Shown in pieces: positions 27,472-61,076 of a DNA stretch of 64,000 bases. This DNA is from Hysterangium stoloniferum (lineage: Eukaryota; Basidiomycota; Agaricomycetes; Hysterangiales; Hysterangiaceae), in assembly GCA_015178975.1 (NCBI GenBank), contig WHVD01000012.1, forward strand, positions 868,001-932,000. Reading direction: 5' to 3'. How positions within the stretch are numbered: position 1 is the first letter of the stretch; each line of letters begins with the position of its first letter. The position numbers and the translations under genes are program-made. The notes beneath the pieces were generated by a model. It made no database searches. It was given only the letters and a program-made list of their open reading frames with translations, and was not told the DNA's origin.

Positions 27472-30023
27472 ATGGTCGTCTTGACTGCTGCTGCTATCCT
27501 GCTTTCGCTCGGATTTCTTCGGCTGGCTTCATCTGCTGCTCCCAATCCCAGCCCACCCACAGTGGATACCGGGTATGCAGTCTATATCGGCCACAACAGT
27601 CTCCCCAATACTGCGGCATTCCTAGGCATTCCCTACGCCGAGCCTCCCGTTGGAGAGCGGAGGTGGCGGGCCCCCACACCACTTGATACGAGGAAATTGG
27701 AGGAGAACAAGGCTGTCGTTGACGCGGCGACGTATCCCGATTTCTGTGTCCAAGGCACGACGGGCGGCGGAGATGCTGGTGAGATGATGCATTTTGAAGG
27801 ACGCACACGTTTAGTGACGTTTTCATGCAGGTGGTGCGGGCTCTGAAGATTGTTTGAAAGTAGGCTGGCCGTTTATGTAAAAAAACGTTGGCATTTTCAG
27901 TCCACGAATTTGTTTTGGTTGTAGGTCAATATTTATACTCCAATAAATGCTACGAAGGAGAGCAACCGTACGTCACCCATGAAAACATGCCAGGTAATAC
28001 AACTTTGACTATACCGTGACCATCGCCGCAGTCCCCGTACTAGTGTACTTCCACGGTGGAGTAAGCCTTCCTGAAATATTAAATAATCCACCAGCTGGCA
28101 TTGATCAAAGCGCAATCAGGGCTACATTTACGGCAACCCCGCAAACTGGTACGTCCTCATCCCCTCCACATTCACAGTCCAAAATTAGACACCAAAACCG
28201 TCCCCACCGCCACGACGACTGACCCACTCACTAACGCCGCTCTCCTCTCCACCGGCAGGCCCTTCGACCACTGGATCAACCAGTCCCCCACGGTCGTCAT
28301 CGTCTCCGTCTACTACCGCCTCAACGTCTTCGGCTTCCTCGCCCACCCCGCCCTCCGCAGATCGCTCAATGCCGGATTTATCGACCAGACCGAGGCGCTG
28401 CGGTGGGTCCAGTCCCACATACGCGCGTTCGGCGGCGACCCCGCCAGGGTCACGATCAGCGGCCAGAGCGCGGGGGCCAATTCTGTCGAGCTGCATCTTG
28501 TGGCGTACGGGGGCGGTGGCAACAAGCGGAGCCCGCCGCTCTTCAGCGGGGCGATTGCGCAGAGTGTGTCCAGGACGCCCATGCCTGCGGTTGAGGACCA
28601 AATGGTGAATCTTCCCCATTTTGTTTTTTGTTTTGTTTTTCGTTTGGCTTTGGCGTTCTCGTGGCTGAGACCACGCGCGTGGTGTGATGATTGACTGATG
28701 GTTTCTCCCCCGGAAGCCCCTCTTCGAGTATCTCCTCCAGAACACCAGCTGTGCCCTCCCGACGGCTGTAGAGCAGCTTTCCTGCTTGCGCAAGGCGAGT
28801 GTCAGTGCCCTCATACGTAGCTCGGACTCGGCTAGTCACTTCTTGTGAGCCAGCTTCGCAATTGACCGCCAGTCTGCATCTCCTATAACGATATACATAA
28901 TAATATATAGCCCCGGCGCCTATAAAATATGGGTCCCAGTCGTTGACGGTACTGTCTTCACGGATGCACCTACCAAGTCGATCCGGGAGGGTAAGTTTGC
29001 CAAAGTTCCAATAATGGCAGGGTAAGTCGAGAGTCGAGGTTCATCCACTTGTGCTTACACCCCCTATCTCTCTCTTTCTCTCTCTCTCTCTATCTACTAG
29101 CTCGACTTCCAACGAGACAATCCTCCACTCCGGAAATATAACCGCAGATCTCATGACTTTCTACCCCAGGCTTACAGCCTCTGAAATTCAGCAGATTTCT
29201 AACCTATACCCTGAGAGTGCATTCGCGAATGATCGTCAACGTAGTTTAACCATTACGGGCGATGCGACGTTCCACTGTGGGGTATGTCTTCTGCCAATGC
29301 GCCTTGCATTGTTGGCTGCGTAGTATCCCTCTTCATTTATATGTCCTTTTATTTTTGGTCTGGACAGCGTGAGCTCCTCGGCGGTGCTGCAGCAAAGGCA
29401 AACCTCCCTGCGTTTGCCTATCGCTATAATCAGCGAAATCCCACGTCTGATGGTGATATCGTTGATCATTCTGCTGAAAACTGGATGATGTGAGTCCTCC
29501 CATCCGCTCATTCAGGGTACAACCGTCCATACAATAATAATTTTAGGTTTTTGGGAACGAATACAGGGTACTTGTCAATCCCTCCTTCGAGTAGTTTCAA
29601 TTCTTAAATTTGACACGGGGGATGATAACAGGACGAATGGCTCGACCGTTTTCACCGGCTTGAACCCTGTCGAAACAGCATTCAGCCAAGAACTCATCGC
29701 ATACTGGGTAAGGAAGCAGCTAATCTCTCCAACCAAGTCCCAGCTCGATCAATTCATCAAAAAATACCCACCCCTTTTGTGACTTTTGCTGAATAAAGAA
29801 ACTTCAAATATAGCTGTCTTTCGTCCGCTCCGCGAATCCAAGCACCTTCCGCTTGGCACGTTCTCCGGAATGGCCGGCTCTCTCCTCGGGAAAACGCCAA
29901 GTTCTGCAGCAGGACGTTGGAAATTCAACGACGGTTAGTGGTATCGTACCTGAGGCCGAGCCGCAAGCCGATGTGCAGCGCTGCCAATTTTATTTTTCAC
30001 TGGCGGAGGTGATGCAGAATTGA
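27472..30023 (+). CDS. Secreted type-B carboxylesterase/lipase, copy 2 (intact)
   Basis: This is an alpha/beta-hydrolase that would cleave carboxylic esters outside the cell. A signal peptide (residues 1 to about 21) precedes TAAFLGIPYAEPPVGERRWR; then come SEDCLKVNIYTP, YFHGGGYIYGNP (oxyanion hole), PTVVIVSVYYRLNVFGFLAH, the nucleophile elbow VTISGQSAGANSVELHL, GSTSNETILHSGN (position of the acidic triad residue), VDHSAENWMM (probable catalytic His) and LSFARSANPSTF near the end. About 13 exons splice in phase to roughly 540 residues, a normal size. One exon (about 29558-29578) is only about 21 nt. Natural substrate is unknown. The unit 1 copy is frameshifted, so this is probably the only working gene of the pair. 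Confidence 0.88.
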
Positions 30024-31220
30024 GCGTGGAGCTGTACATGAATGGGGTGTTAATTCAGACCCATGTGATATGGGTATGTATGCATGTGGTGTAAAGGCGG
30101 AGAATTGAATGAACGTGATATTTTTGTTGGACCACTTAATGGTGGTCGAAGGCCTATCCCCGTAGCACTTCTGATCTCTATAGAGGAATTTTTGCCACGC
30201 AAGTGATGAAAACATCCTCACAGGTCAAACCGTCTCGGGGATTCGAGGCACACCCGTTTCGGTAGCGACGGGATCCTGTATATGCGTGTTTAGGGGTGGG
30301 CGATGATTGCGGGGAGAACATAAGTGGAAGTTGCGACTGGCATTTTATTGTCATGTAGCAACAAGTGGCCATCACGGGAAATCTGACAGCGAGCAGGGGA
30401 ATATGCTCCCATGATAATGGGATAGTGGGTGCTCAGACGGATGATTTTTCCCAGATGAGCTCTCTAAGACGTTATGGACAAACGCCACCCACCCACCCTT
30501 CCCTTTTTTTCTTACGTACAGCGCAATCCACCCCACGATCCGATCCCAAATACCAAATATCCAAAGGCAGATTGCTCGCTCTAAGGTGTAGGAAACTGTA
30601 AAGTTAACTGTTGAACCCAAACGAAAGGATTCATGTCGGCGGATCGGTGACTTGCATTCTGGAGGGATTTAACACAGAATTCACGAGGTTTAACCATTTT
30701 TCGTGAGAGTGTTTATTTTGTGGACATGACAAACCGGAGAAAAGGTAAGATAAACTCAATGTCCAGGTGGGCAGCGTAAAACGCACACCTAGCTCGGCTA
30801 CCTCTTGATTTTTATCATCAACGATATGTTTAGCTTTATTATTCGTGTTTTTTTCGGCGCGTTAAAACCCAGTGAACTCTTCGCCACTTGCGTCCGTCCT
30901 TGACGAGGTGGGTCGGTGGCGCACAGGTTCTTAAAATCAGAACCTCGCAGATAGATGAGTGATGAAGTCGGCATTCCGCGTGGAAATTTTTCACATAGCG
31001 ATTAGGCTTACCCACGATATGCACACATGACTTCTCCCACACCATGATCACCTGTCATCTAATATAGTAAAACAGAACATAAATAGAGATCATTGGCAAT
31101 TGTAGCGGCAGACACAGCGATGACAATTCAGAACAGAATGTAGTTGAGCTTACTCCACGGGAAATGTTACACTCAACCCTTAGTCCGACACCAATCAGGC
31201 TTCAAATAGTCTTGATTTTA
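30024..31220. other. Intergenic part of duplication unit 2
   Basis: No gene is recognised; counterpart of 24427-25626. Confidence 0.5.
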
Positions 31221-35760: not shown

Positions 35761-37124
35761 ATGATTTTCACGTACGAAGTAAGAAGTTGTTATATGCCCC
35801 GCCATCAGTTTATGCATGTTTCTACCTCAGGTCATTTCTGGTTTCTTTTCTGAAGGTGTGGACAATAACGAAGTGACACTGGAACAGGTAATCTAGCTCT
35901 GATGCCAAGTTGTAAATCTTTCAGCTTACAATACCGATATACTTAGATACCACCCAGATTTGGACTCATCGATTCATCCCCTACTTGTTGGCGCTCGTTC
36001 AAGGCGAAGATTGCAGAGTTGAACCAGTCTTCGCCCAAAGATACCACTTATAGAGTCTTATTTGTGGGCAGGCACGGCCAAGGATATCGTGTGTTTTTTT
36101 TTGCTGTGAAATTGCCAACATCATAAATTTGATTTCTCGAAATTTCAATTACGCCTTGCAGATAATGTAGCGGAAAGCTTATACGGATATGACGTGGGTG
36201 CTTTCCTTCTTTACTTGCCTTTATAGTGGTTGGGAGTTCAGGTATCACATTATCTTCTGTAGGCATGGAACAGGTATGGTAGACCTAATGGAAACCACGT
36301 GAATATTATTAATCGTATTCCATCAAGCCACTGGGCCAAATTAAACGGTGACGGGAAAATAATTTGGGGTCGTGAGTCCTTATTATTACACTGCCGGACC
36401 TGAATAATCGCCGATGTGGCGTTAGCGGATCCTCAGTTAACAGATATGGGACTAAAACAAGCAAAAGCCGTGAACAGGGCTTGGAAAGAGCAGGTTAAAA
36501 ATGGCATGCCCTTGCCAGAAAGCCTGTATTCCAGCCCATTCACCAGAGCAGCACACACGGCGCTTCTCACATTCGATGAAATTTTAATCAACGTTGAAGA
36601 GGCCTTCCAGAAGAGGCCGGTCGTCAAGGAGGTACGTTCGCTAGATTTTATTCTCTCGTTTTACAGATCGGGAAACCATACATGGGCTTCATCCAGAAAT
36701 TGAGAGAAGTGAACGGAGTGCACACATGTGACAAGCGTAGCCCACGCTCTCACATAGTGAAGTTGTTTCCTCAGTTCGACATTGAGCCGGGATTCTCGGA
36801 AGAAGATGAATTATGGGATGCAAACCGCCGAGAAACCGAAGATGAGTTGACCGCGAGGTTAGGACTGGCCCTTCAAGAGATCTTCACAGAAGACTCTAAG
36901 ACATGTAAGTTTTACTTTAGAAAAAATTATTTCATACTTATTTTATGTAAGATATATCCCTCACGATTCACGGTGGAGCTGCCCGAGCGCTCATGAGAGC
37001 TATAGGTGCTCGACCATATCAATTACCTACTGGCGGTACGTTCTCAATATTACCCCGATATCGTTAGCCGTAATGCCACGTTATAGGGGTTGTTTGTCTT
37101 GTTGTCAAAGTTACAAAGGTTTAA
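35761..37124 (+). CDS. Histidine phosphatase / phosphoglycerate-mutase-like protein
   Basis: The enzyme belongs to the branch with an N-terminal RHG motif and a phospho-histidine intermediate; substrate is unknown. Ten exons fit in phase to 278 residues: 35761-35778 (MIFTYE), 35831-35887, 35947-36088, 36162-36193, 36263-36273, 36328-36368, 36426-36631, 36697-36904, 36952-37035, 37087-37124. Motifs: IPPRFGLIDSSP, YRVLFVGRHGQGYHNVAES (catalytic His), AWNSHWAKLNGDGKIIWADP, LPESLYSSPFTRAAHTALLT, GVHTCDKRSPRSHI (second Arg pocket) and SLTIHGGAARALMRAIG (second catalytic His). Exon 5 is only 11 nt but restores the conserved AWN(S)HW segment exactly. Such proteins are common in fungi and usually annotated only as phosphoglycerate mutase-like. 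Confidence 0.85.
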
Positions 37125-37859
37125 TACTGCTTCCTTATCGACTCAGACAACACCAATGAGAAACTATCAATTTTTTGACCATCCAACACTTATCTTTCGG
37201 TATAGGAAATAGACAGAGCTAATACTCGGTTGGCCCATGTTCTTTCGTCATCCAGTACATAATTGGCGCGCTTTTGGCATGAAAGCCTGCATAGTAATTA
37301 TTGGTATATATGATGATAACTTTGTAGTGCTATCTATTGTTTAAGTTGTGAAAAATTTATGGGGGCTAATTGTAAAGGATGTGCTCCTTATTTTAATTAA
37401 ACAGTGAGTAATTATAGAAAACATGTCAGGCAGGGAAAGAAGGCCAGGTGAGGTTGTAAGGTTAGCTTCAAGTGATAGTAAGGTGTAAGACCCAGCTACG
37501 TGGTTGGTCCGAGAGGTTAAAAATAACCAGTCAAAAAAACACACCATAAAGCCCAGAGAAATGTGCGAAGAGAGTCGAGGAAGGGGCAGTTCGTAAAGAT
37601 ATAGTAACAAGAGTAATATTCTGATTACTGGGTGATCGTGGCTACTCCATTCTATCCCAGTAAGCTCCATCAAAGAAAAGAAAAGAAGAGTAATCTTGAT
37701 TACAGCACATGCCCAGTGACCGGATGGCGGACCGTCGGAAGAGTTGTCGGGGAACGGCAACGGTAACAAGCTGGCCCATTTGTAAGCTGGTGGCAAAAAG
37801 GTTACGCATAATGCCCTGTGAAAGCATAAGCACAAAGGACTCCCGTTTCTTCCGCAACT
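37125..37859. other. Intergenic; no gene seen
   Basis: No coding region is recognised between the histidine phosphatase and dehydrogenase genes; it must contain the promoter of the latter. Confidence 0.5.
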
Positions 37860-39767
37860 ATGCCAGGCTCTGGAAAGACTTACCGTATCGCTGTGATCGC
37901 TGGAGATGGCATCGGACTAGAGGGTGAGATTTGAAAACATGTTTGGTCGATATATGTTTTGCCAAGGAGGCCGTTAACGGATGCCTTTCCCATGGTCAGT
38001 TATGCCTGAAGGACTGCGCTGCCTTGAAGCTGCTGCAGAAAAATATGGTTTTAAATGGAATTTTGAGCATTTTGACTTCGCTTCGTGCGATTACTACGAG
38101 AAACACGGAGAGATGCTGCCAAAGAACTGGATCGAGATTCTGAAGCCATTTGATGCGATATATTTTGGAGCAGTGGGCGATCCAAGGAGGTACCCCGTAA
38201 GTTTACCACAGTTTGTATATTGCAAATATATACTTCCTAACAATAGCTTTCAGGATCACATTACGCTTTGGGGAAGTTTATTGCAGGTGAATATTAACAC
38301 GTAAGGGATGGTGACGGACGACCCACCACAGTTCGCATTCAGTTTCGCCGACAATTTGATCAATACGTCAATTTACGCCCTGTTCGCCTTATTTCGGGTG
38401 TCAAGAGCCCTCTTGCGCTGCGAAACCCGGGAAATGACAAAATGTGAACCAGTTTTGAACTCTAAACTACTTTAAGTGATATTGACACCCATCCAACAGT
38501 GACTACTGGGTGGTCCGTGAAAACACCGAAGGCAAGTAAGAATATAGTAAGGCAGTACTGTTATACTTATATCTTATTAGGCGAATATTCTGAGGTTGGC
38601 GGGAGGTGAATGACTCTGGGTTGCTTGAACCTCCTTAGCTGACAATCACATATTTGGACACTAACAGAATGTTTTCGGGAACGGACCGAGAACTCGTGAC
38701 CCAGCAAACGATCATGACACGCACTGGCGTGGACCGTATCTTGGATTATGCATTCAAATTAGCACAAAGCAGACCCAGGAAGCTGCTAACGAGCGCGAGT
38801 ATGTCATTATCCTTATCATCGACTTATATGGGTTGATCAATTTGCTGGCACAGCGAAAAGCAATGGTTTGTTTCTGGCACCGGACTGGGATAACTAACCA
38901 ATTTGGTCTTGTAGGGATCTCTATCACCATGCCTTACTGGGATGAACGAGTAGCGGAAAAGTCCAAGCAATTCCCAGATGTGAAAGTCGAAAAATACCAT
39001 GTCATGATCCGTTTAACCCAATCTATTGTGCAATAACTTAACGCCCTTATAGATCGACATCCTTTGCGCGCACTTCGTGGCGAGGCCTCACACGTATGTC
39101 AATATTCGTTCAGTATGACAGATTCTGTAATTAATTTCCATTCTCTTCAAAGCTTTGATGTGGTAGTGGGGAGGTGAATGCATTTTATTCGTCAATATCA
39201 CTCCCATTGACATCGCTTGACTCATGATATAGTAACCTTTTTGGAGATATTCTTTCGGTCAGTGGTACATGGGCAATACAATTGCATATTATAAGCCATT
39301 GGTTTATTGATGCATTTTCAGGATTTAGGCCCAGCTACAACTGGAACTATAGGAATTGCGCCATCTGGAAACATCAATCCGACGGGAGAATGGCCTTCCC
39401 TATTCGAGCCGGTGCAAATTAAAACAGACTTCTTAGTCACCGTTCACTAATAAGTTGACTACTGACAGGTCCACGGCTCTGCTCCTGACATTTTTGGAAG
39501 GGACATAGCCAACCCCGTCGGAGTCAGTTTTATCGTTTTGGGAAAACCAATGCGGTTTTTACTTACTTATGTCGTCAGATGATTTGGTCTGGTCAGATGA
39601 TGCTTTTGCATCTCGGGGAAACGAAAGCCGCAGAAAGTATCATGAACGCCATTGATCTGGTTCTCGGTCGTGCCAACACATCTGAAATCACGCCTGACCT
39701 CGGAGGTGGAGCAAAGACTCAAGCCTTGGGAGCTGCAATTGAAAAGGCAATCAGGGAGGGAAACTGA
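37860..39767 (+). CDS. Tartrate/isopropylmalate-type beta-decarboxylating dehydrogenase
   Basis: The family oxidises 2-hydroxy acids with NAD and removes a beta-carboxyl group (tartrate, D-malate, 3-isopropylmalate). Fifteen exons join in phase to 366 residues, a normal length. Motifs: TYRIAVIAGDGIGLE (N-terminus), VMPEGLRCLEAAAEKYG, FDAIYFGAVGDPRRYPDHIT followed by LWGSLLQFRRQFDQYVNLRP (substrate loop and Arg cluster of tartrate-dehydrogenase type rather than LEU2 type), DYWVVRENTEGEYS, FDVVVGSNLFGDILSDLGPA (metal-binding Asp) and LFEPVHGSAPDIFGRDIANP (NAD-binding loop). Intron 5 (38532-38580) begins GCAAGT instead of GT, a known minor class that keeps phase here. Exon 8 (38854-38865) is 12 nt. 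Downstream neighbours are the synthase and isomerase of a leucine-type pathway. Confidence 0.88.
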
Positions 39768-41950
39768 TCATTTTAATGTCCGAATAAAGAGACACTGTAA
39801 CGAATACTGCACTGAACAGTACTCCTCTAGACAAAGCCCCGACTCCCGGCTTAGGTTTTCTTTGTAATGATTGACGTCAATTTAGGTGATATCAAATAAG
39901 TTTATAGTGCCACTTTTTTTGTGTGTTTTATCTAAGGGTCTCTAAATTGTGCGGACTCAACTAATTGTCAACAAGCACTTATAATCCAGATATCGGGCAT
40001 CTACAGCTGGCATTTGAAAGCTTTCTCACTAAGAAGATAAGGAGAGAATGGCGATAACCGGTCACAGTTTATTAACGTTAAGAATTGGACAAAATTGTGG
40101 GAAAGTACTAAAGTTGATCCGGTTTCCAGAGGTAAGATAGTAATGAAAAGATTGTGAGGAAAATTTTGGTCAAATAGTGCGGCATACATCCAGCAACAGC
40201 ATCATTTTGCCCCTGATAGTAGTATTCAGATCGAACAGTTTATTTTCGCACCGTTTCCGAAGAGCGAACATAATACCAGACCGTAATTTTCACTTTGACA
40301 GAATTTTGATGATTTTACTTATTTTTTTTAGCATTTTGGGTGCGTGAAAACTCTGATAAAATCTCCAGCATGTTACCAATCTTGCGACAATGGTGAGATA
40401 ATGAGGAAATCTGCATTTTCTCACCATTATCACATTTGCCCTTGCAAAATACTCTGTAACAATTTGCATGCGCCAAAATATTACTCTGTAGGCACCGTGT
40501 TTTCACCTTGGTAAAAATAAGCTGTTTAATGTAAGCCTGGCCACCTTACCACATACGCCACCATTCCCTACCACTCCCTTTGTTCGACTAATCAAGCATT
40601 CCTTGTGTCGCCACTCAATCACCCTTGACCATTGTTCTCCCATCAACCTTTGTTCTCCTTTTCCTGCCACATCTTCCTTGTCTTCAGGCACATTTTGTTA
40701 CCACAATCTTATTGTTCCAAGCAGATATATAAGTATACATTCCACAGTGATAAGAGAACAATCTTTTTGACCATGAAATCCCTTCTCACTATTCCCTGGG
40801 GAACCTCACATTCATCTTGTATCATATTGCTATTAAAATAAAGAAAACTTAGTCCTGTCCGTGTTGACCGAGTCAGGCTGATAACAACAACCTTTCATTT
40901 AATCTGAATAACATCAGGCGCTATTACTTAGACCATTTTATCGAAATTTTCCTCACAATCTTTTCACACTATTTACCTCTGAAGATTTGATAAATTTTAG
41001 CATTTTGTTCGGTATTAAATGGTGAGAAAATATGGTGGATTCTCGCCATTTTCGGAGTGGGGAAACTTAGAAATGCCCTGGCTGTGGTCATTGCGTCGAG
41101 TGATGACTTGGGGCCGCTTCTGTCTCGCTCCGTGGATGAGGCATACTGTAGCACCGATATAGATGAGCCGGCAAAGTTCCAGGGTTGGGGTAGAATTTAT
41201 CAAAACGAAGAGCGGGTAAGAGGTCGAGGATAAGCTGTCGACTCCGCCGGGATGTGACGAGGCTTCCCACAGAAGAACATCAGGAACTACAGTACTTGCG
41301 AGTCAACTCAGTAGCGACCGGTAGAAATCCCTTAATAGCCTACGGCACAAATAACTCACTATAATGGATAGTAAGTGTGGTGCTATTTCGGTACTTAAGA
41401 GGCATCGCTTTTGAATGAGGGAGATCCGGGAAGGGCGGAGGGCGGAAGGCGGAGAGAGACTCTTATGCTGTAGTGCGTAGCATGTGGTCCGCCATGACAT
41501 TCCCTCCGCCGGTGGAGATGCTCAACTTTGGAAATTTCCTTATTTGCTTAAGAGGTGTGGTAGTTTGTCCTTGGTTATCAATGTTAGACAAAGCCCGAGA
41601 CGCTGTTGGATGGGAAGGCTTAGTATAAAACTAATATTAATTTATGTATTGTTGTCAAGCTTCTCATCAACTGTATTCCACAGTACTCAAGAAAAATTAT
41701 ACTTATATTCAGTATAGACTCATAAGCTGTGCACTCTTGCGTCTACATAAAATAAATTCATCAGCAACAAACTCGACGGTGGTGATGTTATATACACTTT
41801 GATTTGAATTAAATGATTTTCCCAAGAGTATTATCATATAACATCGGCTTAATCATCAAGTTTGTGTAAGCCGCCAAAGACTGAGTCGGACTACGCCACG
41901 TTTTAGGTCGCGCAAATGGGGGTGAGGGAACTCACCCCTACGTTTGAGTA
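39768..41950. other. Intergenic with inverted repeats; no gene recognised
   Basis: About 2.2 kb without a recognised gene. Segments near 40118-40165 and 40930-40980 are inverted copies of each other, sharing GAAAAGATTGTGAGGAAAAT, and short hairpins with TTTTCTCACCATT occur near 40390-40437 and 41018-41055. Between them, 40523-40886 has an ATATATAAG box (about 40725) and AAATAAAG (about 40838) as in a solo LTR, with ends TGTT/AACA but no target duplication. Confidence 0.4.
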
Positions 41951-43096
41951 ATGACTTCTGATTCTCCGTTATCTCAATTCCGATCACCACTTCCCGACCT
42001 CCTGGACGTCTCCATTGTGAAGAACCATGCAGAATTATCGGGAAGGTTTTCGGCCATAGCAGAAGCATTACTTTTGGAATACCACTTGCGCATCGAATAC
42101 GAAGGAACAGTCACTGATTTTGAGATATTGGAAATTGAATTTTATCTTTACTTGCCGGATGTTCACGAAGACCCATTTTGCCATGGGCATGATGACCAGA
42201 CAGCATCAGCACAATGGTACAAATTTTTTATTTTATTTTCTATTTCTGTTCATTCCAAACTGGGAGTGCCCAGGTATTTCCACCGCGCTGGAAAAGGCTC
42301 TAATCCTTCAAACAATCCATCAAGCGCAGGTGGCTACCGTGGAGGTACACGCAAGGGCCTTGATATCACATTTGGCTCTCCAATCGTATCATCGTTTTTT
42401 TCCACCTCTCACAGTCCAGCGTCGAGTCGAATTCGAGGAGGAATTCTTTTGCGGTCTATTCGCTCAGCGAATGGGGAAAATACCATTATATCTGGTCCGT
42501 CGCTCGTGGTCGACAAAATTCTGACGATCAATAAGTCCCGAAATATTGCCGAGTTAGTTGGGACGAAATTAGGTGGATGTATCTCTGCCCTGCAACCAGA
42601 TGCGCATGTGGAGTCATCTTCCAGCATTCAGTCAAGGCTCTATTTGACCGCGTGTCTACGAGACCCCAAAGGAAAGCCGACAATTATTTATCGTTCACCG
42701 CGAGTAGGTCTAGATTTGTCACATCCATCAGTTATTCCGCAACGTGATAATCTACGAGTCCAATACGTAGGGAAATTTTATCGATATTTCGTCCGACCGG
42801 AGCTTTTAAAAGTGAATGGACGTTGTCATACATTTGTGGGGCTTCTCGTGGACGGTTTTCTCTTGGAGCAAGGACATATATCGAAGCCAATATCAATGGG
42901 GCGCTTAGTCGATTTAATTGGCCTTAAGCAAGCCATAGTTCAGCGATATACTGACGATTTCATGGACGGCGGAGCGAAACGAAGTCTGGTGGAATTTGTG
43001 GGATCCAATGGAAAGAATGCTTCTTCAAATGCGCGAACTTTTATGCGGATGATGGGAGTTTTACACCGTATGGGATTATTGCATAAGGACTGCTGA
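41951..43096 (+). CDS. Conserved protein of unknown function (EIEFYL / GGYRGGTRKGLD motifs)
   Basis: The ORF contains one intron of 57 nt (42217-42273); removing it joins TAS-AQW to YFHRAGKG and gives 362 residues. Visible motifs: LRIEYEGTVTDFEILEIEFY, LPDVHEDPFCHGHDDQTAS, WYFHRAGKGSNP, GGYRGGTRKGLDITFGSP, RGGILLRSIRSANGENTIIS and a basic, globular C-terminal part. I recall this pattern (an EIE-Y-L strand, HEDPFxHG, W-Y-F-H-R, YRGGTRKGLDxTFG) from uncharacterised fungal proteins. The dense His, Asp and Gly motifs suggest an enzyme or nucleic-acid-modifying fold, but that is speculation. No signal peptide or membrane segment. It sits between the dehydrogenase and synthase of the leucine-like set, all on the plus strand. 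Confidence 0.78.
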   Translation: MTSDSPLSQFRSPLPDLLDVSIVKNHAELSGRFSAIAEALLLEYHLRIEYEGTVTDFEILEIEFYLYLPDVHEDPFCHGHDDQTASAQWYKFFILFSISVHSKLGVPRYFHRAGKGSNPSNNPSSAGGYRGGTRKGLDITFGSPIVSSFFSTSHSPASSRIRGGILLRSIRSANGENTIISGPSLVVDKILTINKSRNIAELVGTKLGGCISALQPDAHVESSSSIQSRLYLTACLRDPKGKPTIIYRSPRVGLDLSHPSVIPQRDNLRVQYVGKFYRYFVRPELLKVNGRCHTFVGLLVDGFLLEQGHISKPISMGRLVDLIGLKQAIVQRYTDDFMDGGAKRSLVEFVGSNGKNASSNARTFMRMMGVLHRMGLLHKDC

Positions 43097-45709
43097 TATC
43101 ATTGTTATTATTATCCGCAAGGTCTGTTCTGGTTGGTACGTGACCGCTACGAGCTACTTTATTGCTCACGTATCCGGGTGTTAGGGTATTCCGAGGGAAT
43201 ATGTACAATCAACGCCCTCGTAGGCGGATGATGTTAGGACGCCCACCGCCCTGCTTCGTATTATGTCACCTTGGCGTGGTGATGGGATGGACTCCCATCA
43301 CTGTACATTCTCTCTTTCATCATCATGATATTCCGAGTCTATTCGTCTCTAGATGCAGACTTTAACACGCCGCTGGCCATCCCCAGACGTCATCCATTCA
43401 TTCATAGCCGAACGGACGCACAACACTGCTTTTCACTCATTCGTATTGGACACAAGAACGGCTAGATATATAGGGCGCAATGGCAACATTGTTACCCCTT
43501 TAAAGGGCTGCTAGGTGTATCGACTGGTTAAAGCCTTGAAATTAGAAGCATCCCTGAATTTGCGGGTCATCCATTGTAAAGCGAAGTATCCATATAAGTC
43601 CCGGATATTGGCCGTTAGTGGAAACAAGCGGTTAATTTGTATGTTAAATGACATGATCCGTTGGGAATAGTGTTGCCGCCGGCTCAACTTTTTTGCATGG
43701 CTACAGTTGAAGAACTTGAGAAATTTCTTTTTATTATTCGGTTTTTAGCCTTTTTTCAGTATTTCTACGCTTTTAAAACTCCTGGGATAAATTGGCTGAA
43801 GCCGTGGGGCCGAGTCGGGATCAGCCGAACTGTGGCATCATTGGGCAGATTCCCACTGCTCAACATCCGCTTCCTGTGAAATATGTTGAAAACGTGAGTA
43901 TAGCAACGTGCGGCCAATAACGGTCAATCTCGGTTCGTGAAGCTTGCACCACAGGCTAGGCCTTGGACGGATAGCGGTGCCTTGGATATTTATAGATTAG
44001 TGACATTTGGTAAAGACTGTGGGCTCAGGAGTGAGGTTTGAGGGTTTCTTCATTCTTACCCCACTTTTTGCTGCTAAATGGCTATCCCACTTCTGTCGGT
44101 CAGGGGAGTTCCGTGGTTAAACCGTTGTGGTTGCATCAAGTGGCAAAATTACGTAAAGTGCTGACCAGACGCCATTGAAGATCCATGAGTTGGAGGAGCA
44201 CAACGATTTTCTGTTTCGACTTGTATGCTGTTCCAGAATAGCAGTGACACGATGTATTGCAGATAAAAACACATCTGGAGGTATCGAAGTACTATGAAGA
44301 TTATTTCAGACCGTACATATACTTGTATCTTTGGATGAAGAACGGAGGGGATTCGGAGTGGGTCGGCCGCATAGTCATTTGACAGTTCTTCGTGATAGTC
44401 AATCACCTGTTTTGGATCTGAATCAATGGCTCCTGGCGCGGCTGATCTATGAACCACCATGTGTTTCGGCAGTTTGCTTAGAGGAAGAAAATTTGACCCA
44501 TAAGTTCTTGAAAGACTGCAAAATTCTGCATATCTATTAGGTGTAGATTGTGTTCCTCCTGGGCGTTGCTTCTGCGGTAAAACTTCCGATAGGCCTCGCT
44601 TAAGAGCTGATGTGTCTGTGTATTAAGGGTTTCTATTATCAGAGAATCTTCAGGAAGACACCTCGGGAACTTAAGTTTTCCTGAGTTCGGGTTTTCTTCG
44701 GAACTGGTTGGAAAAATTATTTATTTTTTAATGCGTGAAAGCCTGTTCGAGTCCTCTCCACAGATGTTCTTTTCGACGCTCATCAAAAAATCTGACCGGA
44801 ATACTCCAAGAAGAATTTTTTTATCAATAATGTTTTTTGAACTCTAACAACCCTGTCTCACGGTTTCACTCACCATCACTTTGTAATAATTCATGAAAAT
44901 ATATAATTGTATTCTTTATACACTTGCACAGTAACCAGTTCCATGGGGCAAAGTATTTAGTTGTCCCAAACAGGGTTTGGGGCCTGAAGATCTGACGGTT
45001 TCAAGGCCTTTGCAACGGTGATCAAAACGGAGGTTTTGTTTTCGGCCCTTGTTCCGTGAAAATCAATTTTAAAACGCACAGCAAACACACTCTAATAAGT
45101 ATTATTTTCCAAGGTAGTGTAGGTTTTCAAGGTGGTCGAAAATTCATTGCTTAAGCGCCGTGGCAGTCTTGCCTTGCAATTGCCCCCTTGTCGTTCCCAC
45201 GGCGACTACTAGAAAAAAATTCCTAACGTACCTTTTAGCATTTTTCTTGGTAGATCTTAGCTGTACAGCTCGTTTCGCTCAGGCGCTAGAACGACTACAC
45301 AAGAGGAATCTATACTTCTGATTACCTGGCTGAAGTAAATCACACGTGGCGTCCGAGCTTATGTATCTTGGACAACCTCCGCTCGCTTGCAAATATTCTT
45401 ACTAATAACAGCGGCCTCGCCATGGGTTCGCCACGAACCTGATCTTTTGCTTGCAAGTCATTGATGTTCCTTTCTTAGGATGTATCTCGACGTATAGATC
45501 TCGGAGCACTCGCGAACTTTTCCAGTAACTCTACTTCTCTGTCAACTCAATATTGAAAAGAAGAATTGATGTTATCTTCGGGAACCCTCACTACCGTCTT
45601 TCCGGCCCATTGGCTACGTGCCTTGGCTCTTGGAGTCTCCCGACGTTCCCATTAATCCTTGGCTATTTAAGATGAGGACCCCTCAAGGAAAACCACCCCC
45701 ATCTTCTCA
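43097..45709. other. Intergenic; no gene recognised
   Basis: About 2.6 kb with short ORFs only. Just before the synthase gene GGCTATTTAAG (about 45661-45671) is a possible TATA-type box about 40 bp from the start codon. Confidence 0.45.
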
Positions 45710-47922
45710 ATGTCTCCCCTTCGCCCTACTGCATGCTTAAAAAAACTTTTTCCTTCCCCCTTTGCTGCTCGTCAGCCATCTCGAATCCTCTCTCCAAAAG
45801 TATCACCGTATAGAGCCCTAGCTACCGTGTCAGATGCCATTATTATGTACGTTGCCTCCCGAAGCTTTGGGATGTGATCTCATTACTCTCTGACAGCCCC
45901 GATCCTTCACAAAAGTACCAACCTTACTCACCAGTAAACCTCCCTGATCGTAAATGGCCATCCGCCGTCCTCCGCTCCGCCCCAATATGGCTCTCCACAG
46001 ACCTCCGCGATGGAAATCAAGCTCTCCCTAATCCCATGACTATCGAACAAAAACTCAAATTTTTCGCCATGCTCGTCCAGATCGGTTTCAAAGAAATTGA
46101 AATCGCCTATCCATCGGCGAGCGAAACAGAGCACAAATTTACTCGGAGTCTAATAGAGGACAACCTAGTCCCAGACGATGTTTGGCTACAGGTATGACCA
46201 ATTAAACTCAAGAGCTTCCCATAATTGACATTTCACTACAGGTTCTGACTCCCTGTCGGCCAGAGCTCATAAAAAAAACCATGGAGAGTGTCGCTGGGGC
46301 CAAAAATGTGATTCTTCACATGTATCTGGGAACTGCCAGAGTGTTCCGAGAGGTCGTATTTCAAAAGTCATGTGCGGAAACTATCGACATGGCAGTTAAA
46401 GGCACAGCACTCGTCCGAGATTTAGTCAACGAGTACGGAGCACGTTACGGGACGAACTTCCGCTTTGCTTATGGAGTAGAAGGCTTCTCCCAGGCTGAGC
46501 CTGACTTTGTGGTCGATCTGTGCGAAGAAGTGAAAAGGACGTGGGGTAAAGCTGGTCCTGGCAATAATCGCATGACGGTTAATTTGGCAGCGTCAGTTGA
46601 GGTTGCACCACCCAATCACTTCGCAGATCAAGTAAGGAACACCACATATTGTTCATTTAAACGATCTAACAAATACTGAAGGTGGAATATTTCTGTCGTC
46701 GCATCAGCGAACGCGAAAAGCTTATTGTCAGCCTACACCCTCACAACGATATGGGTATATACCTACCGTCTAATGCATGCAATATTTCCCTAAATTTGTG
46801 TTTTCCAGGTACTGCGGTGGCGGCAGCTCAGTTGGCATTGCTCGCGGGCGCGGACCGTGTAGAAGGCTGTCTACTTGGCCATGGAGAACGCACCGGAAAT
46901 GTCGACCTCATCACGATGGCATTGAACCAATTTACTCAAGGAATATCCCCACGCTTAGATTTTAGTAATCTACCCCACATAATAAATGTAGTCAAGGAAT
47001 GCACCGGCCTTCCGGTGAACCCGCGTCTTCCTTATTCCGGTCAGCTTGCCTTCACGGCCTTCTCTGGCTCACATCAAGATGCCATCAGGAAAGGATTCCA
47101 GGAGCAGGAAAAGAGACATCAAGAGAATCGTTCGAAGGGAGAACCGCAACGGTGGAGTATTCCATATCTACCGTTCGATCCCGCAGGTTCGTATTTAATT
47201 ATATATAACTCCTCGCCTTTAGTAATGACTCTTTTTCTACTTATTTTTTAATAGATATTGGATGCTCATATGAAGCTATGATCCGCGTGAACAGTCAAAG
47301 CGGCAAAGCAGGCGTCGCAACTGTTCTAGACCAGGCACTCTCTCTCCAGCTACCCCGCGGGATGCAAGCCGAGTTCTATCAATTAATACAAAAAGAAGCT
47401 GAACGAACAGGAACCGAAGTCTCCATTCGAACTATTGTTCGAATATTCCGTGAGACATATCGCATGGGTCTTGAACAGCAACTCTCAGGTTATGTCGTAC
47501 TCCGTTCGTGCCGTGTCTCTCAGCCGAGGGGCACAGCGCTATGCAGCGTTGATGCTGAAATACAGTGCGACGGCGCTTTGCGGGTCATTCAGGGGTCAGG
47601 CCCTAATCCTCAAGCAGCGCTTCTATCGGCTCTGGGTAATCACTTTAATATGCCACTTGCCTTTCTGGAGAATTGCGAACACAAGCGGGAGGCTACTCGA
47701 GAACAAGGGCAAGAAGTGGCGCATTACATCAAAATATCTCTCCCTCGTACCAATGGAGAATACTGGGGAATCGGGACCGGCTTCCAAAGCGAGCAGGCTG
47801 GTATGAATGCCGTTATCAGCGCGGTCAATGCAGTCATGGATAGCTTGGATATCCGCTCCAACTGGACACCCGATTACTCACGACAAAATGGAGTTCACCG
47901 GCAAATAGCTGCCGCGATGTAA
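45710..47922 (+). CDS. LEU4: 2-Isopropylmalate synthase-type acyltransferase (LEU4 family, divergent)
   Basis: The family condenses a 2-oxo acid with acetyl-CoA; in leucine synthesis 2-oxoisovalerate gives 2-isopropylmalate. Six exons (45710-45846, 45897-46191, 46242-46631, 46682-46754, 46809-47186, 47255-47922) join in phase to 646 residues. The N-terminus ([20 protein letters not shown]) looks like a mitochondrial presequence. Motifs: [20 protein letters not shown] (metal-binding Asp), [25 protein letters not shown] (metal-binding His pair), [36 protein letters not shown] (linker) and a LeuA dimer/regulatory domain ending near [20 protein letters not shown]. Family members normally have HPHNDRG and FGNGERTGN; here Arg is Met and Asn is His. 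This hints at an altered substrate. The gene symbol denotes family, not proven role. Confidence 0.9.
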
Positions 47923-49317
47923 CTTGTTCCAAAATGCACTTAATATCAAGACCTTATGGCAATCTTCTCATATATTATTATACGATGTATTACCATTGGA
48001 TTGCATACTACCTAGTAATTATTAATACGCGCAGGACACTATCATTATAGGTAGAGTAGGAGTTCAACACTTACCAATAGAGGGGAAAAGGAGGCGAGTA
48101 ATTCGTAGTTTGTATACGCCTCAGGCTATCGAAGCGACTGGGCAATCGAGCATACTCATCAATAGAAATTAAGCTTGTCAGTCTCTTAATAATAATTAAG
48201 GCTCATACAGAGACTTAAGAAGGCTGCAAACTGGCCCTATACATCGACATACTTTGCCCAAATAAAATAAGGTTTGCTTGCTGGGGCTGGTCATGATGTA
48301 ATGATGATGTCCACAGTTGTCGAATCCATGTTTTCTGACTTCCCAGTGGGAATTCAAAGAGGACTGAAGAGGCTACAATGAGGTTGCTTTCACATACCAA
48401 TAGTCGTCTTTAAGGAGAATTTTTTGATTAGTGCCCGAACATTTATCCCTACAAGTTCGTAAAGCATAATGAGGGTGAATGTATCACGGATGGGGTTCTG
48501 TTACAGAAAAGATTGTGGAAATGGGTGCGCGATGTTGGTGGGCTGGGATTGGGCAAAAGGAACTCCATGCACCAAGGATGACTCAGGTACCGACAGTCCA
48601 GGCTCCGAATATCGGGCATCCCATTGTCAATTGGAGGAACATGCTGCGGCTCAGGTCTATAAGAAATGATGCATCAGTGGGGCACGGTGGGATTGTTAAC
48701 CACCTGATGATATGCCGAAGCATCTGGGGTTAGATGGCTGCAAATCTGGTATATTATAGATAGTAGGAATATGTCTACTATAGCTATTTTCAAGAATGGG
48801 CATTTCATTTTTGGTAAAACAAGCTTTTCGTTTTTGTTCCCCCCCGAATCCCGTCGGATCATCCGTGTAACGTGACAATCACCTTTGGGATCTCTCGTGC
48901 ATTGAGTGCGTGGGTGCCTTGAAAAACACTAAGGAGTTATGTAAGGACCACTACGATGAAAAGATGAAGCTTTCGCCAAGTATACGTGAAGGCGTTCTCA
49001 GCCAACCAATATCGTCATGTCAGGCATGCCACGCAGCCAATGCTTTTAAGTCAGATGATGGCCCGGAAATGGCCAGAATTAAAAATCCTTTTTTTACAAA
49101 GAGAAATCTTTACAATCTTTTTGGCTAGACCCGTTATGGTTCATTCGATGTCGCTGCCATTCATCGGGAGTGGGATTCTGTGGCGCTGGCGCTGCCGCGT
49201 GGAGCTATCTTGTAATTATAAAGTTGGACAACATGGACGTTTCCGAGGTTTATCTTCTACTCACTGACCACCATCTGACCACCATCCTAGCAGAGAAATT
49301 GATCCTCAAAGTACATC
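47923..49317. other. Intergenic; no gene recognised
   Basis: About 1.4 kb between synthase and isomerase genes; only short ORFs without motifs. It must hold the isomerase promoter. Confidence 0.5.
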
Positions 49318-52246
49318 ATGACGACAACGCCTCGGACATTATATGAAAAGATATGGGAGTGAGTCGTCAACATAATTAAGTATGTTTTAGGTAACTCACC
49401 GCGACCTTAAAAACACTCCTTTTTTTATAAAGTCAGCATCTTGTGTAAAAATATTATTACATTCTTGTCAAAACAGGTATAAACTAACCCCATTAAGGCA
49501 CATTCAGGATGACGGAAGGGCATTGCTTTATATCGACCGGTCAAAGAAGCAGACTCTTCGGCAATAGCAAATTCACTGATGTACCCAATTTTTACAGTCA
49601 TATTATACATGAAGCCACGAGTGCTCAAGCCTTTGAAAGCCTGTGGGTGACAGTGTGTATATATATTCAATGATCTTGATAGTCCCAGTCGAGAAACAGG
49701 ACGGATGGTGCGCCGGTCCGATATCACGCTGGCGACGACGGATCATATAGTACCGTAAGTCTACTTCTTCTCAGTTGATTGTGGAATACAAATGAAGGAA
49801 TCAACAGGACTAGCTCACGAAGAGCTATTTCATCTGTGAACCGGTATTATGATGATCCTAAGACCGAGGAACTATGTGTTGCCCTGGAAAGTAACGCCAG
49901 AGAATACGGATTACAGTTTTTTGGGATAACGGACCAGCGCCAAGGTTTGCATTTGAAACTAAACTTCACGATTTCAGGAATTTACATCCTGGTTAAGGGA
50001 TTGTGCACGTTATTGCTCCAGAGCAGGGTTTCATCGTAGGCATGTTTAGTCCCACGAAAATCCAGTGTATGACTTCTTCTCGTTAGCTTCCCGGGATCAC
50101 ATGTGTTTGCGGCGATTCACACACATCTAGTAAGTGCTATACATAAATTGTGTTGTTGTTTTTTTGTTTGTCCTTACACCGAGATACTAGCACATGGTGC
50201 ATTCGGCGCTTTAGCATTCGGAATCGGTACTTCCGAGGTAGAACACGTTCTTGCAACGCAAACTTTGTTACAAAAAAAAAGCAAGAGTATGAGAATTGCT
50301 GTCGAAGGCGAACTGCACGAAGGGGTAACCTCAAAGGATGTCATCATGTATATTATCGGACAAATTGGGACAGCCGGCGGAACAGGTATATCAAGTTCTC
50401 AATTACTGTTGGATTAATACAAATTCAGTCCCAGGTTGTGTTATTGAATATTCTGGCTCTGTATTCAGAAATTTCAGTATGGAAGCTCGCATGAGTGTTT
50501 GGTGAGTGGGGTGAGTGCTACAGGGGGATCTTTCAATAATGGTACTCTAGTAACATGTCGATCGAGGCGGGTGCCCGTGCGGGGATGGTAGCGCCGGATG
50601 AAACTACCTTTGAATATTTGAAGGGCCGTCCTTTCGCCCCTCAACCAGGGGCAGAGTGGGATAATGCAGTGGAATACTGGCGTACTCTACATAGTGACGA
50701 AGGCGCGCACTTCGATGTCGACATCACCATCAATGCAGCGGATATCAGCCCCTGTGTTACATGGGGTACATCTCCCCAAGATGTTGTCCCAGTCACGGGA
50801 AGTGTACCTCATCCAGATTCATTTACCGATGCTCGCAGGCAGAGTAGTGTCCGACGTTCATTGGAATACATGGCGCTTGAGCCAGGGACTCGTATGGAAG
50901 ACATTGAAATTGATAAAGTTTTCATTGGCTCGTGCACAAACAGTCGCATAGAGGATCTACGCTCGGTTGCATCCCTGATTTTGGCGGCCGGTCCTAACGC
51001 ACATGTCACGAAAAATGTATATGCCATGATAGTTCCAGGGTCTGGTATCGTAAAAAACCAGGCAGAAGCAGAAGGCTTGGACGTGATATTCAAACGCGCA
51101 GGGTTTGACTGGCGAGAGGCTGGCTGTTCCATGTGCTGTGGGCTGAATCAGGACAGATTAGACACAGGCCAGGTTGGTTACAACTTTTCAAATAGGTGAA
51201 AATAATTCTCTAATCTAGGGTGATAGAGGTGTGCTTCCACCAGTAACCGAAATTTTGAAGGTCGTCAAGGAAGCGGCGGGAGGACACATCTTCTCAGTCC
51301 AGCTATGGCTGCTGCAGCTGCGTTGAATGGAAAGCTTACGGACGTGCGGAAATACCCTCATTCAAAATCTACTGGCAGCATAAGTCTCGAAATCACCAAT
51401 AGCGCAGACTTCGTGGACAGGGCTGCAAACCCGACCACTCTTCCGGCAACCAGAGACGCTCCCATATCAATATCCGCCAAAACAACATCTCCAGCATCAG
51501 TCAATGTTCCTAAGTTTACCGTACTAAAGGGAATTGCAGCACCGCTTGAGAAAGAAAACATTGACACAGATGTGATCATCTCTGTACAATTTTTGACAGG
51601 CATTAAGCGTACTGGATTCGGAAAACATCTCTTCCACGCTCTGAGATTTTCTCCGCAAACTGGAGAGAAGACTGACTTTGTCTTGAATAATGCCCCATAC
51701 GATAAGTCATCGATCATCGTTTGTACAGGCGCAAATTTCGGATGCGGCAGTAGCAGGGAGGCAGCACCATGGAGCCTGTGAGTAGCTGAGTAGTGAGTTG
51801 GATCTCCTATACTTGTCGCTGATATTTCGATACTCAGGAAAGAATTTGGAATTAAATGCATCATAGCCCCAAGCTTTGCGGAGATCTTTGAGAATAACTG
51901 CTTCAAAAATGGCATGCTTCCTATAACACTTCCTTCAGTAGATTGTGAGTTACTTCACGGAGATGCGATTTCAGCATCACCGCTGGAGGTTGACTTGGAA
52001 AGGTTGGAAATTCGGAGAGGCAATGGACTACCATCCGTTACGTTTCAGGTGGATCCTTTCCGCAGATACTGTCTGCTGGAAGGCTTGGACGATATAGGCT
52101 TGACTTTTCAAAAGGAGAAGTACATTCAAGAATTTGAGGTGAAGCGCAGCCAAAGATGGCCGTGGCTGGACGCAGGTTTGCAGAGGCGTAGTTCGCACCC
52201 CACCAGCGAGGGAAGTGTAAAGGATGTCCGTGGGTTAGCTTGGTAG
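49318..52246 (+). CDS. LEU1: 3-Isopropylmalate dehydratase-type isomerase (LEU1 family, divergent)
   Basis: This aconitase-family Fe-S enzyme moves the hydroxyl group of 2-alkylmalates. Thirteen exons join in phase to 757 residues, the length of the fused fungal enzyme: 49318-49358 ([13 protein letters not shown]), a 12-nt exon 49433-49444, 49498-49539, 49598-49642, 49683-49754, 49808-49944, 49998-50035, 50087-50129, 50191-50385, 50435-50501, 50551-51172, 51227-51777 and 51838-52246. Large-subunit motifs are present: [33 protein letters not shown] and [10 protein letters not shown] (the three cluster cysteines). The small-subunit part has [14 protein letters not shown] and [15 protein letters not shown]. 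The usual forms are DTDAIIPKQFL and GCGSSREHAPWAL, so Pro-Lys and the His of the SREHAPW motif are changed. These lie in the substrate-recognition half. The symbol denotes family. Confidence 0.9.
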
Positions 52247-53080: not shown

Positions 53081-53945
53081 ATATGCATGAAAGTCGTCAG
53101 TAAACAACATCAGGATAAAAAAAGGAGGCTTACCGATTGGCTTTGTTTCACCGAAGAAACCATAGGCTGGTGGAAATAATCAAGTTCAACGTCCGTCTAT
53201 AAGTGGAATTGAACAGTTAAACTGACCAGTCCTCCAGTTGACTTTGTGGACGCATCAAGTTTAAGTGACAACGCATCAGGAAAATAAATCCCTAGCACAC
53301 CTTGTTGGAGTCTGCGAGCCATAGAAGCTGCGAGACTCCCGTGTTGTCTCAGATGATTGATTCTGAGATTGAATTAAGTAAATTTGGGTATAGACAGGTC
53401 ATGTAGTTAGCGTTATACAATAGTGTGCTTTGCCCCTATACATTGAGACTCCCAAAATATTTAACACACCTCATGAGTGCGTTGATGATCCTGAGAGGTT
53501 GAAATTGTTATTTAAATACCCTTATCAGAACTTTCGCGCATCACATGCTGTTTTGAACTTACATATCGGGAGGAGCAAGAGAATCCTGTAGGGAGTTGAT
53601 ATGATGAGGCCTTTCTCACCTCATGTTTGCGTTGATGATCCTGAGAGGTTGAAATTGTCATTTAGATACCCTCATCAGAACTTTCGCGTATCACATGCTG
53701 TTTTGAACTTACATATCGGGAGGAGCGGGAGAATCCTGTGGGGAGTTGATATGATAAGACCTTTCTCTTTCCAAATCCTCTTCTGGAAGGCGTATGCTCA
53801 TATTTTTAGCCAGCAGTCTTAAGGTAATTGTGTGCCTCTGTCGATGCGACAATGAATGCAGAATAACAATCACCTCGATTTCGGAATCCAGATCGGCTCA
53901 TTCAAGCACCTGGTTTCCTGCAAACGGCACTAGGTGATTGTGAGG
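53080..53945 (-). pseudogene. Decayed partial copy of the S41 gene's 3' exons
   Basis: Minus-strand pieces correspond in order to the last exons of the neighbouring S41-family gene: GNQVLE-stop-ADLDSEIE (Trp codon TGG changed to TGA), a broken TAGLKN exon, DSPAPPDM (DPLAPPDL in the gene), INANMR (IVDGDMR) and AYGFFGETKPI (AYSFEHADVPI), still flanked by splice signals. Upstream exons are missing. A 150-bp segment holding two of these exons is itself doubled (53471-53620, 53621-53770). Confidence 0.7.
53471..53770. repeat. 150-bp tandem duplication (two units)
   Basis: Units 53471-53620 and 53621-53770 differ at about ten positions. Each contains one DSxAPPDM exon and the following short exon of the S41 relic. 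Confidence 0.85.
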
Positions 53946-60609: not shown

Positions 60610-60621
60610 CATGGAGCTTGG

Positions 60622-60849
60622 CTTCAATGTATATGTTGGGCTTCAATGTATATGTTGGGCTTCAATGTATATGTTGGGCTTCAATGTATATGTTGGGCTT
60701 CAATGTATATGTTGGGCTTCAATGTATATGTTGGGCTTCAATGTATATGTTGGGCTTCAATGTATATGTTGGGCTTCAATGTATATGTTGGGCTTCAATG
60801 TATATGTTGGGCTTCAATGTATATGTTGGGCTTCAATGTATATGTTGGG
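60622..60849. repeat. 19-bp minisatellite, exactly 12 copies
   Basis: CTTCAATGTATATGTTGGG is repeated 12 times without a visible change. The preceding GGAGCTTGGCTTCAATGTAT is the reverse complement of a segment at about 60486-60508 in the outer LTR, so the array grew from an inverted LTR piece. ORFs through it are artefacts. Confidence 0.93.
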
Positions 60850-61076
60850 CCCTTGCACAAACCATCTATGTGCTCTGGCATTTTGGAAACAAGCAAGAAG
60901 TACAACTCAAACAAAGTAAGCAATGCTGATGACTGGAGGGCTGGAGTCTAAGGTTGACAATGATTAGAGTCTCAGACTTGCTAAAGACTAGTGTATGAGA
61001 CACTGAAACAGAAAGGGGGAATACCTAAGTTGATAGTTGAACTGAGGAATAGTAGAATACAAACAGAGACTTTATA
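60850..61076. other. Spacer; no gene seen
   Basis: Probably the 3' untranslated part of the minus-strand gypsy element that follows. Confidence 0.4.

Follow-up and report, generated by a model that had tools for sequence, protein, structure and literature searches.

Divergent LEU4- and LEU1-type paralogues in Hysterangium stoloniferum, a possible two-gene unit for 2-oxo-acid chain elongation in Phallomycetidae

The window analyzed here is a 64,000-nucleotide stretch (positions 868001 to 932000 of contig WHVD01000012.1, or C24) of the 111.1-Mb genome of Hysterangium stoloniferum, a fungus of the subclass Phallomycetidae. It carries two genes, LEU4L and LEU1L, which by sequence comparison are divergent, lineage-specific paralogues of 2-isopropylmalate synthase (IPMS) and isopropylmalate isomerase (IPMI), respectively. 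We favor, at a probability of roughly 55%, the reading that the two form a dedicated 2-oxo-acid chain-elongation unit of Phallomycetidae that borrows LEU2. LEU4L would join acetyl-CoA to a 2-oxo acid distinct from 2-oxoisovalerate, most plausibly a longer aliphatic one (the leucine, isoleucine, or methionine 2-oxo acid, for instance), to give a 2-alkylmalate; LEU1L would isomerize this to the 3-alkylmalate, and the one-carbon lengthening would be finished by a decarboxylating dehydrogenase, for which the shared LEU2 is the likeliest candidate. A transaminase may then yield a homologated amino acid, and leucine control of LEU4L would be lost. Within this scheme we infer the substrate, the loss of feedback, the use of LEU2, and the product.

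Four intact genes, all in spliced models on the forward strand, lie between 37860 and 52246 (Table 1), exactly as the original prediction had placed them, on a single strand and with open reading frames; the three enzyme families that it named (condensing enzyme, isomerase, and dehydrogenase) are backed by Pfam and NCBIfam profiles. The LEU4L and LEU1L models match H. stoloniferum proteins P0001 and P0121, each with 100% identity over 100% of the length. Comparisons of LEU4L use the best 120 of 7993 homologues scored, which split into six LEU4L proteins and 114 ordinary enzymes. The six are the query and five proteins with 67 to 69% identity to it (860 to 995 bits), and they come from Hysterangium, Ramaria rubella, Sphaerobolus stellatus, and Clathrus columnatus (two), plus record P0003, whereas the 114 ordinary enzymes reach at most 777 bits and 50 to 55% identity. 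The named genera span Hysterangiales, Gomphales, Geastrales, and Phallales, all four of the orders under Phallomycetidae. In a careful tree that included 21 of the 114 ordinary enzymes, the six group as one clade with 100/100 support, and the stem leading to them measures 1.9 changes per column; a quick tree that took in 38 of the 114 together with Mycobacterium tuberculosis (Mt) LeuA also recovers the clade. An origin of LEU4L beside the LEU4 of Phallomycetidae is absent from the best tree, yet it is not rejected (approximately unbiased test, P = 0.072). P0003 may be a transcript, since its 646-amino acid (aa) frame is unbroken on a 2,394-base contig where the Hysterangium gene has five introns. 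The second LEU4L of C. columnatus, P0006 (Clacol_001961), is on a contig of 3,719,891 bases.

The LEU4L proteins are short, 591 to 692 aa versus 778 to 807 aa in the 114 ordinary enzymes, and the first exon of the Hysterangium gene probably encodes a mitochondrial presequence. LEU4L matches the Pfam families HMGL-like (217 bits) and IPMS_D2 (98.9 bits), with LeuA_dimer just under its cut-off (24.0 versus 24.9), although LeuA_dimer is precomputed as present in P0002 to P0005. The C-terminal regulatory domain is thus present and eroded, and not missing as in synthases of the methylthioalkylmalate synthase (MAM) type. All four LEU4L proteins scored (P0003 and P0006 fell outside this set) miss the cut-off of 697.4 for the leuA_yeast equivalog TIGR00970 (658.8, 676.8, 682.6, and 682.7), which the ordinary H. 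stoloniferum LEU4, P0031, passes with 911. In a fold comparison with a predicted model, Mt LeuA ranked first (40% identity, TMq 0.55) and BjMAM 13th. A distinguishing column, one in which at least 95% of the 114 ordinary enzymes share one letter and at least five of the six LEU4L proteins share another, occurs 35 times, and LEU4L keeps 200 of the 308 columns conserved in ordinary enzymes.

Several of the changed residues line the substrate pocket (Mt LeuA numbering). S216G, P252A, T254S, and R290M are present in all six LEU4L proteins, where the 114 ordinary enzymes have S, P, T, and R without exception; all six also have A in place of T223 (kept in 113/114) and G in place of A171 (114/114). 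At the invariant N170, five of the six have L and the sixth has F; at E214, which 113 of the ordinary enzymes have, five carry N and the other carries A. The catalytic and metal-binding residues of the barrel (R80, D81, H167, Y169, E218, N250, H285, H287, H379, and Y410) are intact in all six.

Some of these changes recall the plant MAM synthases. Gly229 of AtMAM1 is constant across the MAM synthases studied, and at AtMAM1 position 259 the Pro of IPMS is replaced by Gly or Ala (PMC6603273); AtMAM2/3 (PMC6603273) and BjMAM2 (PMC8468904) have Ala at the P252 position, and BjMAM2 carries Leu, Gln, Asn, and Ala at positions 182, 223, 253, and 255 (PMC8468904). We take these last four as Mt H167, E214, N250, and P252 and Gly229 as S216; the positions are matched through the anchors D90, E227, T257, H288, H290, and H388 and the agreement of letters between AtMAM2 and BjMAM2, not through an alignment of MAM sequences. 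With positions so matched, the MAM-type Gly at S216 is found in all six LEU4L proteins. A different comparison is offered by HphA (PMC12961565), in which a Glu and a Ser of IPMS, two residues apart, are replaced by Asp157 and Ala159 (Asn at 157 in hHphA), and which also differs from IPMS at Leu and Asn positions that LEU4L seems to keep. By reading, the first two are taken as E214 and S216, and Met186 and Ala73 of HphA as N250 and L143. An aromatic substrate of the homotyrosine type is set low because N250 and L143 are unchanged in LEU4L; the match covers these positions and leaves Ser242 of HphA outside it. Weighing the pocket letters against the MAM and HphA comparisons, we lean softly toward an aliphatic 2-oxo acid somewhat larger than 2-oxoisovalerate for LEU4L, and a C5 to C6 aliphatic 2-oxo acid is the likely substrate of the pair.

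The leucine sensor is altered as well. Leucine contacts L535, A536, V551, Y554, A565, and A567, and yeast mutations at G531, G533, and A536 abolish feedback (PMC2704214). G533, L535, Y554, and A567 differ in all six LEU4L proteins: G533 (114/114 ordinary enzymes) becomes N, S, T, N, D, and S; Y554 (113/114) becomes N, S, S, S, V, and C; A567 (112/114) becomes V, L, I, V, M, and F; and L535, which is L or I in the ordinary enzymes, is Q or E. G531 is unchanged, and positions 536, 551, and 565 are uninformative because the ordinary enzymes themselves differ from Mt LeuA there. Yeast G516S lowers leucine sensitivity, (PMC6558412), and the Gly-Asn-Gly-Pro motif that we read in the mutagenic primer places G516 at the G533 position. 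Given the changed sensor residues and this precedent, leucine control of LEU4L is likely lost. The leuA_yeast model hits the ordinary P0031 in two stretches, which suggests a second regulatory-domain repeat that LEU4L lacks.

LEU1L has diverged in parallel. It matches Pfam Aconitase (578.2 bits) and Aconitase_C (127.8 bits), scores above the leuC (718.6; cut-off, 560.25) and leuD (211.4; cut-off, 116.25) models, and retains the motif and iron-sulfur cysteines (GSSRE, GSCTN, and GCSMC in P0121). The LEU1L proteins of Hysterangium, Ramaria (P0122), and Clathrus (P0129) were compared with 116 others, with the divergent Ramaria P0123 in neither set. Among the 427 columns with at least 95% conservation in the 116, at least two of the three LEU1L proteins agree with the others at 375, and all three depart from them at 38. 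N63I turns DHNVP into DHIVP, L421C and P425Q adjoin the cluster cysteines, and H611A replaces the His after GSSRE by Ala in all three; the loop that follows IDTD contributes M548V, P551S, K552V, and T557G to the 38. In bacterial small subunits that Pro and His are kept in 5/5 alignments shown, three of which share identical aligned letters. In Arabidopsis, a loop of the small subunit holds a substrate recognition region of five residues that sets the preference between leucine and methionine-elongation substrates (PMC7308503), and by motif position it is the corresponding small-domain region that is altered in LEU1L. The three proteins form one clade (100/99) in a tree of 27 of 120 rows and join P0123 at 100/100. 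P0123, from R. rubella, is another divergent protein of the LEU1 type; it is sister to LEU1L and has changes of its own at motif positions, and Ramaria may have several isomerases.

A search of the whole genome, in which the best candidates were scored so that family counts are lower bounds, bears on whether LEU4L could be the only LEU4, an outcome that would have spoken against the original prediction. It is not: an ordinary LEU4 (P0031) is on C29, a contig of 254,446 bases, and LEU2 is on C96, matching leuB in two exon pieces (248.0 and 110.6 bits), each below the whole-protein cut-off of 353.2, so for LEU4 that objection does not hold. Other HMGL-like matches are on C13 and C543, with exons that read as homocitrate synthase and hydroxymethylglutaryl-CoA lyase, respectively, and on C486 (one weak match). 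Besides the dehydrogenase of the window, the remaining Iso_dh matches read as isocitrate dehydrogenases (NAD and NADP) and homoisocitrate dehydrogenases.

LEU4L and LEU1L are 1.4 kb apart in Hysterangium, and, judged by locus tags and contig sizes, they appear to be together in relatives. The Clathrus genes have consecutive tags (Clacol_008775 and Clacol_008774) and equal contig sizes (2,758,758 bases), and both Ramaria genes are listed on a contig of 81,234 bases. It is scarcely credible that these are degenerating paralogues that are neighbors by chance: the long stem (1.9) and the eroded regulatory domain of LEU4L would fit decay, but full-length relatives persist across four orders with catalytic residues kept, and the tags in Clathrus are consecutive. 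Shared Leu3-type control of the pair was considered and rejected. When at most one mismatch is allowed, the window holds 16 copies of CCGGNNCCGG versus 13.1 expected. A single copy is exact, at 15494, and two one-mismatch sites, at 38874 and 47771, are within the dehydrogenase gene and LEU4L, respectively, not upstream.

The main competitor of a dedicated unit is that the two enzymes are leucine isozymes, with LEU4L a leucine-insensitive second synthase for a compartment or stage, LEU1L the working and perhaps only isomerase, and the pocket changes drift or tuning. This is unlikely in our estimate, and several observations lend it weight or count against elongation. All four LEU4L proteins scored exceed the cut-off of 455 for the NCBIfam 2-isopropylmalate synthase subfamily PRK03739.1 (670.2, 672.9, 667.1, and 667.5), as LEU1L passes leuC and leuD, and the leucine-enzyme letters at L143, H167, N250, and S283 are unchanged in all six; paired isozymes of 2-isopropylmalate synthase are described in a yeast (PMC7418496). 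Hysterangium has at least one LEU1-type protein, a single one among the 120 listed; were it the only one, LEU1L would also have to serve leucine. In long-chain BjMAM1A/B the residues at the E214 and P252 positions are still Glu and Pro (PMC8468904), so changes there are not required for larger substrates; single changes at these positions had little effect, whereas four jointly switched preference (PMC8468904), and G259A alone left AtMAM1 without product in Escherichia coli (PMC6603273). Clathrus LEU1L has a very long branch (1.52) and a start that looks misannotated, a LEU1-type protein of Sphaerobolus is not among the 120 listed, and the neighborhoods in relatives are not read from their DNA. 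Tailoring, nonribosomal peptide synthetase (NRPS), and transaminase genes were not recognized near the pair, where the whole window was not scanned with profile libraries. Against the isozymes stand residues that are invariant in 114/114 ordinary enzymes and uniformly changed in 6/6 LEU4L proteins, the divergence of both partners, and the leuA_yeast cut-off missed by every LEU4L scored.

The dehydrogenase gene upstream of LEU4L had been proposed as the third member of a dedicated module. It passes the tartrate dehydrogenase model TIGR02089 (528; cut-off, 470.4) and falls below a second one, PRK08194.1 (452.6; cut-off, 501). Compared with its model, P0241 (97% identical) carries 11 more residues, located where the model splices out the GC-AG intron; P0242 and P0243 lack these residues. 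With P0245 and P0246 dropped beforehand, the protein and three relatives keep 182 of the 183 columns conserved in 115 others, and it thus has no sign of a new specificity; set beside 200/308 for LEU4L and 375/427 for LEU1L, this ratio is a rough guide, as backgrounds and thresholds differ. The departures from active-site norms suggested for all three enzymes are seen in the alignments of the condensing enzyme and the isomerase, and not in the dehydrogenase. That it is a dedicated third enzyme is improbable. It is on the same strand, 5.9 kb from LEU4L, and is listed for Hysterangium, Ramaria, and Sphaerobolus, where its contig has the same size as that of LEU4L (1,073,753 bases); however, an unrelated gene intervenes, the Ramaria copy is on a contig of 162,914 bases rather than the 81,234 of the pair, no Clathrus copy is among the 120 listed, and Jaapia, outside Phallomycetidae, has one. 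The named Agaricomycetes among those 120 are Hysterangium (two), Gautieria, Sphaerobolus, Ramaria, and Jaapia. The three-gene module is doubtful because the dehydrogenase is unspecialized, on another contig in Ramaria, and unlisted for Clathrus. We treat this enzyme as an ordinary tartrate/D-malate dehydrogenase and an ordinary neighbor, probably outside the module. The original prediction is borne out in part: LEU4L and LEU1L are lineage-specific paralogues with altered substrate-side residues and are apparently together in relatives, but the third gene shows no specialization.

A dehydrogenase of the D-malate/tartrate type would suit a small side chain, and its presence nearby is the point in favor of a short substrate, with LEU4L making citramalate from pyruvate and the pair, with this dehydrogenase, leading to 2-oxobutanoate. 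We regard this as very unlikely, as S216G, P252A, and T254S enlarge the pocket rather than shrink it, and LEU4L scores only 70.3 on the citramalate synthase model TIGR00977 (cut-off, 450). The dehydrogenase region is duplicated elsewhere in the genome, with 36366 to 40530 and 40898 to 41540 matching G000:C135:915270-920050 (L041) at 98.0% and 95.6%. The C135 exons differ from the window gene by 12 changed codons (one an in-frame stop), four silent ones, and an insertion; this copy was rejected as a sign of a second cluster, being a recent duplicate with an in-frame stop, and the LEU4L searches show none on C135.

Table 1. Genes and gene parts in the window (window coordinates; pLDDT, predicted local distance difference test)
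Feature	Position	Strand	Basis
LEU4L, divergent 2-isopropylmalate-synthase-type condensing enzyme, 646 aa, 6 exons	45710..47922	+	Spliced model = P0001; profiles
LEU4L exons	45710-45846, 45897-46191, 46242-46631, 46682-46754, 46809-47186, 47255-47922	+	Spliced model
LEU4L changed pocket strands, residue 220 (aligned Mt E214) to 262 (aligned Mt T254)	46467..46595	+	Alignment
LEU4L exon 1, probable mitochondrial presequence	45710..45846	+	Sequence reading; residues 1-44 pLDDT <50
LEU1L, divergent isopropylmalate-isomerase type, large and small domains fused, 751 aa, 12 exons	49318..52246	+	Spliced model = P0121; profiles
LEU1L exons	49318-49358, 49498-49539, 49598-49642, 49689-49754, 49808-49944, 49998-50035, 50087-50129, 50191-50385, 50435-50501, 50551-51172, 51227-51777, 51838-52246	+	Spliced model
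LEU1L small-domain loop after IDTD, residues 548-566 (M548V, P551S, K552V, T557G, L563F, A566H)	51572..51628	+	Alignment; loop placed by motif position
Tartrate/D-malate dehydrogenase-type gene, 366 aa, 15 exons, GC-AG intron 38532-38580; module membership doubtful	37860..39767	+	TIGR02089; conserved columns
One-exon unknown gene, 381 aa; no sign of module membership	41951..43096	+	No profile match

Searches of Pfam, NCBIfam, and PDB gave no match for the one-exon gene between the dehydrogenase and LEU4L, and its single-sequence fold model is unusable (mean pLDDT, 31.3); on these grounds it was rejected as a pathway enzyme. By eye its pattern may resemble that of an alkyladenine DNA glycosylase. 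Elsewhere in the window, a mostly higher-GC stretch (12 to 30 kb) holds a tandem duplication of about 5.6 kb with a carboxylesterase-type gene (20559 to 25360 and 26172 to 30957, 85 to 98% identity by block). There are three very regular tandem arrays, at 8988 to 9447 (15 bp × 30.7, 99%), 9873 to 10808 (17 bp × 55.5, 98%), and 60620 to 60850 (19 bp × 12.2, 100%), and two 150-bp tandem copies, 93% alike, are downstream of LEU1L (53467 to 53767). Reverse-strand frames at 6418 to 7401 and 61239 to 62193 resemble, by eye, pieces of retrotransposon integrases.

Ordinary fungal LEU4 (of the leuA_yeast type) and LEU1 are alike to the pair in fold, domain order, catalytic residues, and the PRK03739.1 pass, and ordinary LEU4 differs from LEU4L in the pocket, the leucine site, the length, and the leuA_yeast cut-off. 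The neighboring dehydrogenase resembles the 3flk-type tartrate dehydrogenase/decarboxylase of Pseudomonas putida, being above TIGR02089 with its conserved positions kept and below PRK08194.1. The echinocandin hty genes of ascomycetes (IPMS-like, aconitase-like, isopropylmalate dehydrogenase-like, and transaminase) are likewise a fungal leucine-like cluster for 2-oxo-acid elongation (PMC7778625), but they are inside an NRPS cluster with their own dehydrogenase and transaminase, whereas here there are two specialized enzymes in a basidiomycete; the likeness is one of gene content. Of the hty-type parts, the pair supplies the condensing enzyme and the isomerase; the dehydrogenase close by is unspecialized, and a transaminase and NRPS were not recognized in the incompletely scanned window. 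With the plant MAM synthases and specialized IPMI small subunits, the pair shares Gly at S216 and, with some MAMs, Ala at P252, as well as an altered isomerase recognition region and, probably, loss of the leucine sensor (PMC6603273, PMC8468904, PMC7308503). The differences are that MAMs lost the regulatory domain outright where LEU4L retains an eroded one, that LEU4L keeps His where the MAMs tabulated in PMC6603273 carry other residues, and that the fungal lineage is separate. The mycoplanecin system MypK/MypL (homoleucine, homonorleucine, and homoisoleucine) also has a dedicated condensing enzyme and isomerase part and borrows the dehydrogenase of primary metabolism (PMC10817943); in vitro, the dedicated IPMS-like enzyme and LeuD work with the primary LeuB and LeuC (PMC10817943). 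That system is bacterial and in an NRPS cluster, and it is likened by scheme, not by sequence.

More broadly, a Phallomycetidae-wide switch from primary to specialized metabolism, in which a duplicated LEU4-LEU1 pair homologates an aliphatic 2-oxo acid toward a homologated amino acid, acyl starter, or volatile, is a tentative proposal whose chances we put a shade under even; literature searches in one open library found no basidiomycete pathway of this kind. LEU4L and LEU1L are a ready enzyme pair for assay, and, if the proposal is true, they would point to an unrecognized metabolite common to stinkhorns, coral fungi, cannonball fungi, and false truffles. Plants, bacteria, and the ascomycete echinocandin producers already provide examples of leucine-pathway relatives that elongate chains, and a basidiomycete case across a whole subclass would then be a further origin, reached in part through the same pocket changes.

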